Source of the DNA: Rhodanobacter sp.
Lineage (GTDB): Bacteria; Pseudomonadota; Gammaproteobacteria; Xanthomonadales; Rhodanobacteraceae
Assembly (NCBI GenBank): GCA_004298045.1
Contig: SCRM01000021.1
Coordinates: 186,001-250,000, forward strand
Length of the DNA: 64,000 nucleotides
Direction of reading: 5' to 3'
The notes beneath the pieces are model-generated. The model saw only the letters and a program-made list of their open reading frames with translations. It ran no database searches and was not told the origin of the DNA. The translations under genes were made by a program, and so were the position numbers. Position 1 is the stretch's first letter; each line of letters begins with the position of its first letter. This document shows, piece by piece, positions 195-40,292 of this stretch.

Positions 195-1406
195 ATGGCC
201 GAGGTTCTGGATTTCCACGCCTTCCCCGATGTGCAGGGCCGGTTTGGCCGCTTTGGTGGCAGCTACGTGGCCGAGACATTGATGGCGCCGCTGGCGGCGT
301 TGACCGAAGCCTATCTGCGTTTGCGCAAGGACCCCGCGTTCATCGCCGAGCTGGACCGCGACCTGGTGCACTACGTGGGCCGCCCCAGCCCGATCTACTT
401 TGCCGAGCGGCTCACCAGGCACGTTGGCGGCGCGCGCATCGTGCTCAAGCGCGAGGACCTGAACCACACCGGCGCGCACAAGATCAACAACACCGTGGGC
501 CAGGCGCTGGTGGCGCGCTACATGGGCAAGACCCGCATCATTGCCGAGACCGGCGCCGGCCAGCATGGCGTCGCCAGCGCGACCGTGGCGGCGCGGCTGG
601 GGCTCAAGTGCGTGGTGTACATGGGCGCCACCGACATCGAGCGGCAGAAGATCAACGTCTACCGCATGAAGATGCTCGGCGCCGAGGTGGTGCCGGTCAC
701 TTCCGGCTCGCAGACGCTGAAGGATGCCCTGAACGAGGCGATGCGCGACTGGGTCACCAACGTCGCCGACACCTACTACATCATCGGCACCGTTGCCGGC
801 CCGCATCCGTATCCGATGATGGTGCGCGATTTCAATGCCATCGTCGGGCGCGAGGCGCGTGCGCAAATGCTGGCCGAGTACGGCCGTCTGCCGGACGTGT
901 TGACGGCGTGCGTCGGTGGCGGTTCCAACGCCATGGGCCTGTTTTACGAGTTCCTGAACGACCGCGACGTGCGTATCGTTGGCGCCGAAGCCGGCGGTGA
1001 CGGCACTGCACCAGGCCACCACGCCGCCTCGCTGTCGCTCGGTCGTCCCGGCGTGCTGCACGGCAATCGCACCTATGTGCTGTGCGACGACAACGGCCAG
1101 ATCACCGAGACGCATTCGGTCTCCGCCGGCCTCGACTACCCCGGCGTCGGCCCCGAGCACGCGTTCCTGAAAGACGCCGGCCGCGCCGAGTACGTGGGCG
1201 TCACCGACGAGGAAGCGCTTGCCGCCTTTCACCTGCTGGCGCACACCGAAGGCATCCTGCCCGCGCTGGAATCCAGCCACGCGGTGGCGCAGGCGATCAA
1301 GCTCGCCCGCGAATACCCGAAGGACGGCATCGTGCTGTGCAACCTGTCGGGGCGCGGCGACAAGGATGTGCACACGATTGCCGCGCGCGAGGGGGTGAGG
1401 ATATGA
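195..1406 (+). CDS. trpB: Tryptophan synthase beta chain
   Basis: TrpB condenses indole with L-serine to give tryptophan, using PLP, in the alpha2-beta2 complex with TrpA. The 403-aa product has the [13 protein letters not shown] opening, the PLP lysine in [10 protein letters not shown], the catalytic glutamate in AETGAGQHG and the phosphate-binding loop GGGSNA, and is of family length. The reading frame is open upstream to a TTG at 126, but ATG 195 is preferred because GGAG at 186-189 is well spaced and the alignment starts there. It is followed by trpA after an 85-bp repeat-containing gap. Confidence 0.97.
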
Positions 1407-1410
1407 GCGT

Positions 1411-1528
1411 CGGATATGGGATCCGGGACTCAGCGGAGGCAGGCACGAACCCCGATGGGTACCGGTCATTTTTCTTGCGAGCAAGTGCGCCATGACGAAT
1501 CCCGAATCCCGAATCCCGAATCCCAATC
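1411..1528. repeat. GGGATTCGGGATT-type intergenic repeat, copy 1
   Basis: The trpB-trpA gap carries GGATATGGGATCCGGGACTC at 1413-1432 and, in opposite orientation, four iterations of a CGAATCC heptamer beginning at 1496. The two arms can pair. The same sequence type recurs at 25211-25364 and 38559-38735. From memory, such strings are common between genes in Xanthomonadales. The right arm runs into the coding sequence of trpA. Confidence 0.75.
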
Positions 1529-2325
1529 GCATCGACACCCGCTTCGCCCACCTCAAGGCCAACCATCGCGCCGGGCTCATTCCCTTCATTACGGCCGGCG
1601 ATCCGGCACCCGCGCACACCGTCGCGCTGATGCATGCGTTGGTTGCGGCCGGTGCGGATGCGATCGAGTTGGGGGTGCCGTTCTCCGATCCGATGGCCGA
1701 CGGCCCGGTAATCCAGCATGCGAGCGAGCGTGCCATTGCCAACGGCGTCGGCCTGGCCGACGTGCTCGGCTGGGTACACGCGTTTCGCGAGCGCGACAGC
1801 GACACTCCGGTGGTGCTCATGGGTTATTTGAATCCGGTCGAGATTCACGGCTACGAGCGCTTTGCGCAGGAGGCTGCCGCTGCGGGCGTGGACGGCGTAT
1901 TGCTGGTCGATTGCCCACTGGAGGAATCCGCCGTGCTCGCGCCACTGCGCGCGGCAGGGCTGCACCAGATTCTGCTGGCCGCGCCGACCACCGCGCCAGA
2001 GCGCTTGGCATCGCTGTGCCAGGCGGCCAACGGATTCCTCTATTACGTGTCGTTTGCCGGCATCACCGGCGCCGCAAGCCTGAGCGTGGGCGACATCGCC
2101 GCGCGCGTTGCCGATGTGCGTGCGCATGCGGCAGCGCCCGTTGCCGTCGGCTTCGGCGTGCGCGACGGTGAAAGTGCGCGCGCCATTGCGCAATTCGCCG
2201 ATGCGGTCGTGATCGGCAGCGCGCTGGTCGATCGTCTTGCCGGGGCGACGACGGTCGCGGACGTCACGCAGCGCGCCACGGCGTTCCTGGCGCCGATCCG
2301 TGCCGCACTGGATCGTCCGCGCTGA
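1492..2325 (+). CDS. trpA: Tryptophan synthase alpha chain
   Basis: TrpA cleaves indole-3-glycerol phosphate and passes indole through a tunnel to TrpB. The 277-aa product has ELGVPFSDPMADGP (catalytic Glu and Asp), FAGITG and the phosphate-binding VGFGVRDGE, typical of the family. Homologues usually start at about NRIDTRFAHLKA. Here no start codon exists at that point, and the only usable ATG (1492) lies 11 codons earlier, so the first residues MTNPESRIPNP are encoded by the intergenic repeat. No convincing Shine-Dalgarno sequence precedes it. It probably shares the trpB transcript. Confidence 0.96.
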   Translation: MTNPESRIPNPNRIDTRFAHLKANHRAGLIPFITAGDPAPAHTVALMHALVAAGADAIELGVPFSDPMADGPVIQHASERAIANGVGLADVLGWVHAFRERDSDTPVVLMGYLNPVEIHGYERFAQEAAAAGVDGVLLVDCPLEESAVLAPLRAAGLHQILLAAPTTAPERLASLCQAANGFLYYVSFAGITGAASLSVGDIAARVADVRAHAAAPVAVGFGVRDGESARAIAQFADAVVIGSALVDRLAGATTVADVTQRATAFLAPIRAALDRPR

Positions 2326-25197: not shown

Positions 25198-25210
25198 GAG
25201 CTTTCTCCGA

Positions 25211-25364
25211 GAGCCGGGATGCGGGATTGGGGATTCGATCGAAGCGGCTTGATGCGATCCAGAACCCGGTTGCGATGCCCGGCACTCTCAATAGTGTTGT
25301 GTGGAGTGGCCTCGGGATTCGGGATCGTGGCTTTTGCCCCATCCCGAATCCCGTATCTCGAATC
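25211..25364. repeat. GGGATTCGGGATT-type intergenic repeat, copy 2
   Basis: The thiolase/dehydrogenase gap is almost wholly made of this repeat: GCCGGGATGCGGGATTGGGG at 25213-25232 on one side, then CTCGGGATTCGGGATC near 25311-25326 and the inverse ATCCCGAATCCCG at about 25341-25353. The arms can pair. It interrupts an otherwise tight operon without adding coding sequence. Confidence 0.75.
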
Positions 25365-36156: not shown

Positions 36157-38558
<2,402 letters not shown>

Positions 38559-38735
38559 GAGCCGGGATTGGGGAATAGGGATACGGAAATCGGAAGGGCA
38601 ACAGCGCTGTCCGGCACACTATTCGGTCCCGCGGTAGCGGCTTTTCCTATTCCCCATTCTCGATTTCCTGTTCCCTGCGAGAATGCCATGCCCGTTTCCC
38701 GAATCCCGTCCCCCGAATCCCGGTTACAGCACCAC
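38559..38735. repeat. GGGATTCGGGATT-type intergenic repeat, copy 3
   Basis: After guaB the sequence GCCGGGATTGGGGAATAGGG begins the left arm, and TATTCCCCATTCTCGATTTC with CCCGAATCCCGTCCCCCGAA forms the right arm, which continues past the guaA start codon at 38688. This is the same family as at 1411-1528 and 25211-25364, and again the right arm is translated. Confidence 0.75.
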
Positions 38736-40292
38736 CGCATCCTGATCCTCGATTTCGGCGCGCAGTACACACAGCTCATCGCACGGCGGATACGCGAGTT
38801 CGGGGTGTATTGCGAGATCTGGGCGTGGGACCACGACCCGGCAGAGATCGCGGCGTTTGCGCCCAAGGGCATCATTCTTTCCGGCGGGCCGGAGTCGACG
38901 ACCGAGGCGAACGCGCCGCGCGCGCCGCAGGCGGTGTTCGACGCGGGGGTGCCGCTGCTCGGCATTTGCTACGGCATGCAAACCATGGCGGCGCAGCTGG
39001 GCGGCGCCACCGAGGCTTCTGGCCATCGCGAGTTCGGCCACGCCCGTGTCGACGTCGCCGCGGAAAGCCAACTGTTCCATGGCTTCACCGACCACACGGG
39101 CTGCGCGCGACTCGACGTGTGGATGAGTCACGGCGACCACGTGTCGCAGGCACCGCCCGGGTTCGCCGTCACCGGCACGACCGACCGCATTCCCATCGCG
39201 GCGATGGAAGACGCTGCGCGGCATTGGTACGGCGTGCAGTTCCATCCCGAGGTCACCCACACCAAGCAGGGCGGAGCGTTGCTCAAGCGCTTCGTGGTCG
39301 AGATCTGCGGTTGCGCCACGCTGTGGACGGCGGCCAACATCATCGACGACCAGATCGCCCGCGTGCGGCAAACCGTCGGCGACGACCAGGTGCTGCTCGG
39401 TCTCTCCGGTGGCGTCGATTCCTCGGTGGTTGCCGCGCTGTTGCACAAGGCTATCGGCGACCGCCTGACCTGCGTGTTCGTCGACACCGGCCTGCTGCGC
39501 TATCAGGAAGGCGACCAGGTGATGGCGACGATGGCCGCCAACATGGGGGTCAAGGTGGTGCGCGTCAACGCCGCCGCGCGCTACTTTACCGCGCTCAAGG
39601 GCGTGACCGACCCCGAGGCCAAGCGCAAGATCATCGGCGGCCTGTTTGTCGAGATCTTCGACGAGGAATCACGCAAGCTTGTCGCTGGCGGCGGCAAGGT
39701 GAAATGGCTCGCGCAGGGCACGATTTATCCCGACGTGATCGAGTCGGCCGGTGCCAAGACCGGCAAGGCACATGTCATCAAGAGCCACCACAACGTGGGC
39801 GGCCTGCCGGCGCACATGCAGCTCAAGCTGGTCGAGCCGTTGCGCGAACTGTTCAAGGACGAGGTACGCCGCATCGGCGTCGAACTCGGCCTGCCGCGCG
39901 AGATGGTCTACCGCCACCCGTTCCCCGGCCCCGGTCTCGGTGTGCGCATCCTGGGCGAGGTCAAGCCCGAATACGCCGAGCTGCTTGCGCAAGCCGACGC
40001 CATTTTCATCGACGAATTGCGCAAGGCGGCGCTGTACGATCAGGTCAGCCAGGCATTCGCCGTGTTCCTGCCGGTAAAGTCGGTGGGCGTGGTGGGCGAC
40101 GCCCGCGCCTACGAGTGGGTGATTGCCTTGCGCGCGGTGGAGACCGTGGACTTCATGACCGCGCATTGGGCGCACCTGCCCTACGAGTTTCTCGGTGCGG
40201 TCTCCAACCGCATCATCAACGAGTTGCGCGGCGTCTCCCGCGTGGTCTACGACATCAGCGGCAAGCCGCCGGCGACGATCGAGTGGGAGTAG
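38688..40292 (+). CDS. guaA: GMP synthase (glutamine-hydrolysing)
   Basis: GuaA aminates XMP to GMP. The 534-aa protein has an N-terminal glutaminase (catalytic Cys in [17 protein letters not shown]), an ATP-pyrophosphatase with [16 protein letters not shown], and the C-terminal dimerisation domain. Family members begin about [15 protein letters not shown]. Here the preceding residues [14 protein letters not shown] are encoded by the intergenic repeat. The frame is open 40 codons further upstream through the repeat, so the exact start is uncertain. Confidence 0.96.

Follow-up and report, generated by a model that had tools for sequence, protein, structure and literature searches.

Palindromic heptamer-repeat elements next to stop codons and predicted repeat-encoded N-termini of GuaA, TrpA and pseudopilins in Rhodanobacter

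Tandem heptamers are reported to be the most abundant intergenic repeats in many prokaryotes, with little to indicate what they do (PMC6344855). The repeats closest to those analyzed here are the GGGAATC and GGGNATC G-quadruplex repeats of Xanthomonas and Nostoc, which occur as dispersed copies whose convergent pairs form inverted repeats (Rehm et al., 2015; PMC4692102). In that paper, the C-rich strand lies in sense at most 50 bp upstream of ORFs and the G-rich strand in sense at most 50 bp after stop codons, with some copies overlapping the stop; 7-11% of the repeats overlap ORFs at least partly, and earlier literature is cited for an excess of simple repeats around N-termini (PMC4692102). 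Rickettsia palindromic elements (RPEs), about 150 bp long, are described as lying, in many cases, in frame within protein-coding genes (PMC10969869). REP elements are palindromes, some of which sit 15 nt or less from a stop codon, and effects on the translation of the upstream gene have been proposed, with reference to studies of ribosome stalling (PMC12306157). In Beggiatoaceae, TAACTGA heptamers form intergenic direct repeats near starts, some overlapping the upstream stop (PMC4679880). The forward TAACTGA repeat has stops in all three frames, which makes a leader peptide impossible, whereas GAATCCC has none and a leader is possible.

Here we analyze a 64,000-nucleotide window of a Rhodanobacter sp. 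genome that contains three elements built from GGGAATC-type heptamers. Across the whole assembly (3.26 Mb, 22 contigs), CCCNAWTCCCNAWTCCC occurs 80 times exactly and 280 times with up to one mismatch, compared with 0 and 6 occurrences of its backwards control; the repeat is far more abundant than expected by chance. The elements consist of paired heptamer arms with at least two heptamer units, as in the definition of the repeats of Rehm et al. (2015), and 30 convergent arm pairs, some with a common arm, are present in the sampled regions of the window's genome. No Rfam family matched above its gathering score anywhere in the window. Exact sites are patchy within the genus: among the 15 genomes searched, five have 80, 69, 32, 18 and 6 sites and ten have none. 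In a genome of another genus (G031), one array holds about 30 consecutive CCCGATT units.

The likeness to the Xanthomonas repeats thus extends to the heptamer itself, the dispersed copies, the convergent pairs and the placement on the stop and start sides; unlike anything in the accessible main text on those repeats, the repeats here are predicted to encode N-termini, have filled and uninterrupted versions of the same stop/start overlaps, and form whole elements in frame (PMC4692102). That text also places the repeats in Xanthomonas and not in other gammaproteobacteria, whereas we find them in Rhodanobacter-like genomes (PMC4692102). The repeat family is therefore already known, and what appears to be new is its predicted coding of N-termini, of which we found no report for the Rhodanobacter group in the mostly open-access literature searched.

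In the window, the sequence and its open reading frames indicate that the predicted GuaA protein begins with residues read from a heptamer repeat. The guaB-guaA element occupies 38559-38723, with GAGCCGGGATTGGGGAATAGGGATACGG directly 3' of the guaB TAA (Table 1). Its right-hand end reads GCC, the ATG at 38688 and the C-rich arm CCCGTTTCCCGAATCCCGTCCCCCGAATCCCGG, which contains GAATCCC twice with a degenerate unit in between, followed by TTACAGCACCACCGC and ATCCTGATC; by eye, the left arm has only three GGG tracts. Between the nearest upstream stop and HHRILIL, in-frame ATG, GTG and TTG codons are confined to ATG 38688 and, within the left arm, TTG 38568; none lies between the C-rich arm and the conserved GuaA sequence. 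Alignment to the NCBIfam GuaA equivalog model begins at residue 18 and to the Pfam GATase domain at residue 19. No clear Shine-Dalgarno site was seen by eye upstream of the new starts. These data bear out the proposal of the initial annotation that the predicted guaA N-terminus is repeat-encoded, with the start inside the element and no later start before the conserved part; the leader peptide given there was rightly ascribed to the repeat but lacked the residues LQ.

Table 1. Features of the three elements and adjoining genes, in window coordinates.
Feature	Coordinates	Strand	Basis or remark
Second element	1407..1527	+	directly 3' of trpB stop TGA 1404-1406; ends within trpA codons
trpA with predicted repeat-encoded N-terminus MTNPESRIPNPNRID	1492..2325	+	
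Third element	25210..25364	-	G arm directly after TGA 25367-25365; not read within a gene
guaB stop codon TAA	38556..38558	+	end of ORF 36576-38558, whose 3' part reads as guaB
Left (G-rich) arm GAGCCGGGATTGGGGAATAGGGATACGGAAATCGG	38559..38593	+	sequence; pairs with right arm in predicted RNA fold
Spacer up to start codon, including second C-rich stretch (about 38644-38676)	38594..38687	+	
guaA start codon ATG within element (predicted)	38688..38690	+	relatives have ATG at the same place
Right (C-rich) arm, 11 predicted guaA codons	38691..38723	+	
guaA, 17 residues ahead of RILILDFG	38688..40292	+	ORF; Pfam and NCBIfam alignments

From ATG 1492, the predicted TrpA begins MTNPESRIPNP-NRIDTRFA, in agreement with the earlier claim that trpA, too, has a repeat-encoded start. 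We compared trpB-trpA junctions at 24 of 30 trpA loci. Twelve are uninterrupted, with the trpB stop followed by 2 nt and then the conserved RI(D/E), and with stop and start overlapping as ATGA in 11 and GTGA in one. In four others (the window, G023, G013 and G001), an element stands directly after the trpB TGA and the distance from stop to RI is 121, 174, 154 and 174 nt, respectively, a net gain of 119-172 nt. These filled sites have the G arm first and the C arm last, with a new ATG just ahead of the C arm; G001 has a further in-frame ATG upstream of the new one. The element in the window splits the ancestral trpB/trpA stop/start overlap, and trpA is the clearest case of insertion. The remaining eight junctions carry GAGTGAG/CTCACTC arms (G009, G010 and G017), GGTCAAA/TTTGACC arms (G015), an ATTCCCC form of the GGGAATC-type repeat outside the trpA start (G021), or no such arms that we could recognize (G012, G020 and G024). 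At four of these loci (L076, L073 and L087 of G009, G010 and G017, and L090 of G015), the other heptamer-like arms occupy this same stretch between stop and start, so that genomes look as though each used a heptamer dialect of its own. We also observed that in the window (1403-1495) the relic trpA ATG, which overlaps the trpB stop, begins a reading frame 30 codons long whose TGA overlaps the new trpA ATG; the corresponding frames of G001, G013 and G023 have 35-42 codons and end in TAA 7-8 nt ahead of the new ATG. Judging from this arrangement, the relic frame could act as a translational coupling relay, but it may be due to chance.

The third element is not part of any predicted leader. The gene upstream of it on the minus strand matches 3-hydroxyacyl-CoA dehydrogenase/FadB models, and the second arm of the element terminates before the start of the following gene is reached. 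Thus, all three elements in the window start at, or a few nucleotides from, a stop codon.

Elsewhere in the window's genome, elements lie at three junctions of a type II secretion system (T2SS) operon, where each follows the stop of one gene and leads into the next. The predicted leaders end SRIPNPGHARRARAAG^FTLLE in the first case and ESRIPHPESRQQG^FTLLE in the second, and the third also ends ^FTLLE, where ^ marks what we take to be the pseudopilin cleavage point. The second and third products match the XpsH and XpsI models best, at 119 versus 160 and 79 versus 150 bits, and so below the curated cut-offs; the first was called gspG from motif and position only, a family query that was perhaps off frame having given no match. 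With these three predicted pseudopilin genes, and with extensions in related genomes, the view that more than one gene carries a predicted repeat-derived N-terminus holds beyond guaA and trpA.

Across genomes, 13 GH, HI or IJ junctions (7, 5 and 1, respectively) have at least six repeat hits, a threshold set after the data were seen. In all 13, the downstream frame is open back to a start that overlaps the upstream stop or lies 2 nt from it. For gspI of G001, G013 and G014 and gspH of G005, G013 and G014, no in-frame start other than this overlapping one exists, and translation would have to run through the entire element. Below the threshold, gspGH of G009 and gspIJ of G010 have some hits and no overlapping in-frame start, and at gspF-gspG, where stop calls are uncertain, three of four repeat-bearing cases fit. 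Palindromic elements that are in frame and open throughout, as in Rickettsia, thus occur at the pseudopilin GH, HI and IJ junctions above the threshold; trpA has a new start instead. The unexpected part is the keeping of frame, for which chance would give one in three, openness being cheap; shared ancestry lowers the number of independent events.

In its three frames, (GAATCCC)n reads ESRIPNP..., NPESRIP... and IPNPESR..., which are one cyclic heptapeptide because seven is coprime with three (7 mod 3 = 1), and the opposite strand reads GIRDSGF in all frames. The match between the GuaA and TrpA peptides 'in sequence and repeat frame', which had been thought meaningful, is thus trivial and uninformative. 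Nor is it one frame that is tolerated, as had been proposed: all three give the same peptide, and C-sense frames of real arms are open in 206 of 213 cases, so that total length modulo 3 is left as the main constraint. In G sense, 191 of 213 frames are open, and unit variants such as TATTCCC bring stops into that strand. We rejected openness as proof of translation, since whole elements elsewhere in the genome (94 of 144 frames open) are no more often open than windows taken at random (2013 of 3000), and likewise rejected a built-in start codon at the inner element boundary, where TTG is found in 19 of 60 cases and ATG in only 4 of 60.

Arm positions were sampled in 47 regions (132 kb) of the window's genome, picked because they bear arrays, with 154 genes called by a home-made seeded codon model. 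Of 71 arms, 52 are intergenic, and for 27 of these 52 the outer edge lies 0-15 nt from the facing stop codon, whereas 5.0% would be expected from random positions between genes (binomial P about 1e-21); 19 of the 27 are at 3-6 nt. Gene interiors are avoided: 51.7 arms would be expected there under uniform placement, and six chains, in two called genes, were labelled interior. N-terminal C-sense arms number six against 3.2 expected under uniform placement (P=0.10, or P=0.21 without the doubtful ddl case); they correspond to seven chains, two of which overlap, and include the ambiguous ddl arm and one on contig C22 called by the gene model only, the gspG arm recognized by eye being excluded. C-terminal G-sense chains number seven against 3.0 expected (P 0.03). 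Both gene ends are touched by elements, and starts are not special. The initial annotation had suggested that the elements insert just upstream of genes and would be enriched at gene starts over random placement; the data do not support this, and the clearly non-random position is the one immediately downstream of stops.

The ddl gene (MPNPPSRIPHPGHFG) was considered as a further repeat-encoded N-terminus and set aside as ambiguous, a leader resembling RI-S/T-N/D-P being common without a clear array (26 of 26 orthologues parsed). In G014 (L211), a clear GAGTCCC array lies within the D-Ala-D-Ala ligase leader. The same site in relatives (RISNPADFG) already resembles the repeat peptide, and native codons possibly seeded the G014 array.

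We searched 61 genomes for guaA and obtained loci for 30, the window's genome (G000) included. The extension is read in four of the 30 (G000, G032, G013 and G001, hence three of 29 others), always at equal length, and the repeat tag is absent from the remaining 26. The repeat inside the guaA start reads MSESRIPNPQSRLHDDKILILDFG in G032 and G013 and MTESRIPNPPFRLHDDKIL in G001; over the 30 loci, the usual start is MT(D/N)IHSDKILILDFG, MQNIHSDKIL or a near variant. An arm ends 1-2 nt ahead of the normal guaA ATG in G014 and G031 (CCCGAGTCCCGC-ATG), and at most about a dozen nucleotides ahead of the start in G029 and G016. Among the matches listed, we took 80 named guaA loci from 587 candidates and parsed 79; one of these, from Rhodanobacter sp. 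DHB23, has the extension, with MSESRIPNPQSR as the predicted repeat-encoded peptide and a GuaA core identical to that of G013. Repeats close to the guaA start, though outside it, were found, again among the matches listed, in Xanthomonas (L103), Pseudoxanthomonas (L105), Frateuria (L102), Vulcaniibacterium (L118), Dyella (L129) and the MAGs L112, L130 and L131. Among those same listed matches, Luteimonas sp. XNQY3 (L116) has another extension of the guaA start (MTGVSESPTPDLHSDKIL), in this case with no heptamer array.

A tree of 61 GuaA cores places the extended ones among Rhodanobacter rows. The extension needs four changes on it, and branches with good support make at least three of these unavoidable. 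Its clustering is not significant (58 of 500 label shuffles equally low); given this scatter, loss, replacement or transfer has to be assumed. The flanks HSHVAAGM and LHDDK are common to G001, G013 and G032, and this suggests a single origin of the extension with later replacement rather than repeated gain. The core of the window's GuaA sits on a long branch among its close relatives (0.46 versus a median of 0.094). In G005, G006 and G009 (L017, L021 and L011), the guaB-guaA interval contains a different palindrome, TCATTCCGGCGCAGGCCGGAATCCAG..., and its presence in sister species suggests that the interval swaps repeat families.

Taking together the positions, the filled and uninterrupted sites, the shared extensions and the frames, all read from sequence, we consider it likely that a paired heptamer element is fixed after the upstream stop and that the predicted leader of the next gene is a tolerated by-product. 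The element is a palindrome of G-rich arm, spacer and C-rich arm, with one end immediately after the upstream gene's stop. Where the next gene lies close to that stop or overlaps it (ATGA), the element ends in its predicted first codons, and that gene could start either at an ATG in the element just ahead of the C arm, as predicted for guaA and trpA, or at a start overlapping the upstream stop with the whole element read through, as predicted for several pseudopilins. The element would be tolerated because its arms hold few stops in any frame and the C-arm frames give the same short polar peptide, and because the N-terminal leaders of GuaA, TrpA and the (cleaved) pseudopilins would tolerate additions, with length modulo 3 limiting what is kept. 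Leader coding would then follow from position and frame-neutral arms; translation of these frames, neutrality of the peptide and the way in which the element spreads are inferences.

RPEs lie inside proteins, whereas the elements here are N-terminal, because they follow the previous gene's stop, and their arms are heptamer arrays. By description, as palindromic and in-frame, they can be likened to RPEs (PMC10969869). The hairpin would most likely act, if at all, at the end of the upstream gene, on its transcript end or its translation, as proposed for REP elements. Closeness of a palindrome to stop codons is common to both (PMC12306157), and the elements here differ in sequence, in size and in having a second arm that may extend into the gene that follows.

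A broader reading, which we find possible but would not expect to be right, is that a propagating class of paired-heptamer elements targets the base next to stops, that its frame-neutral 7-nt unit makes insertions into overlaps immediately translatable, and that each genome has its own dialect. The dialects GAATCCC, GAGTCCC, GTTCCCC, CTCACTC and TTTGACC occupy corresponding junctions in operons, and the two arms of any one element share a dialect, which on this reading would point to active copying or homogenizing and not to simple slippage. When right arms were swapped between genomes, the own pair was unequalled at five of 11 long trpBA junctions (G000, G023, G013, G015 and the repeat-free G050). 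At guaBA, the number of 29 swaps that paired equally well or better was 0 for G014, 1 for G001, G029 and G032, 2 for G013 and G031, 3 for G000 and 10 for G016. The own pair is likewise the best one at several junctions that lack the repeat, because other palindromes are present there. The arms of an element thus tend to change together between dialects, a tendency that is not heptamer-specific.

The advantage of an element's own arm pair over most swaps between genomes would also fit selection of the N-terminal tags for some function, such as dosage control by a start-codon hairpin or a degradation or targeting tag, which we judge unlikely. Consistent with such a function, the predicted guaB-guaA fold has both arms paired around ATG 38688 (MFE -67.3 kcal/mol, z -2.45, 4 of 200 shuffles equal). 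However, the predicted trpB-trpA fold does not stand out from shuffled sequences (z -0.12, 83 of 200), the residues of the extension vary, and 26 of the 30 genomes have no guaA tag. It is more doubtful still that a RAYT-type (Y1) transposase mobilizes the element, as with REP: this would explain clean insertions such as the one at trpB-trpA, and 23 of 37 genomes searched have a Y1_Tnp match, but G000 (assembly 96% complete), with 80 sites the most repeat-rich of the 15 genus genomes, has none, the zero-site genomes G005, G007, G008 and G009 have one or two, and no target-site duplication was seen by eye. The least probable reading, that GuaA starts downstream of an untranslated simple repeat and the extension is an annotation illusion, could appeal to the arms that often stop just outside the guaA start elsewhere (G014 and G031), but the window has no start codon between repeat and HHRILIL, a later start would cut the conserved beginning of the GATase domain, frame and length are kept in four genomes, and trpA and the pseudopilins show the same pattern.

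Collectively, our data favor an element fixed after stops whose entry into the next gene is tolerated. Heptamers in these genomes would then be halves of an element that is often fixed to stop codons, and trpBA, guaBA and the T2SS operon offer natural filled and uninterrupted sites that make insertion, translation and function directly testable. If a stop-targeting class does exist, it could help explain the dominance of heptamers among intergenic repeats. For annotation, the predictions carry a warning: some N-termini in such genomes may be repeat-derived and are easily mis-annotated.
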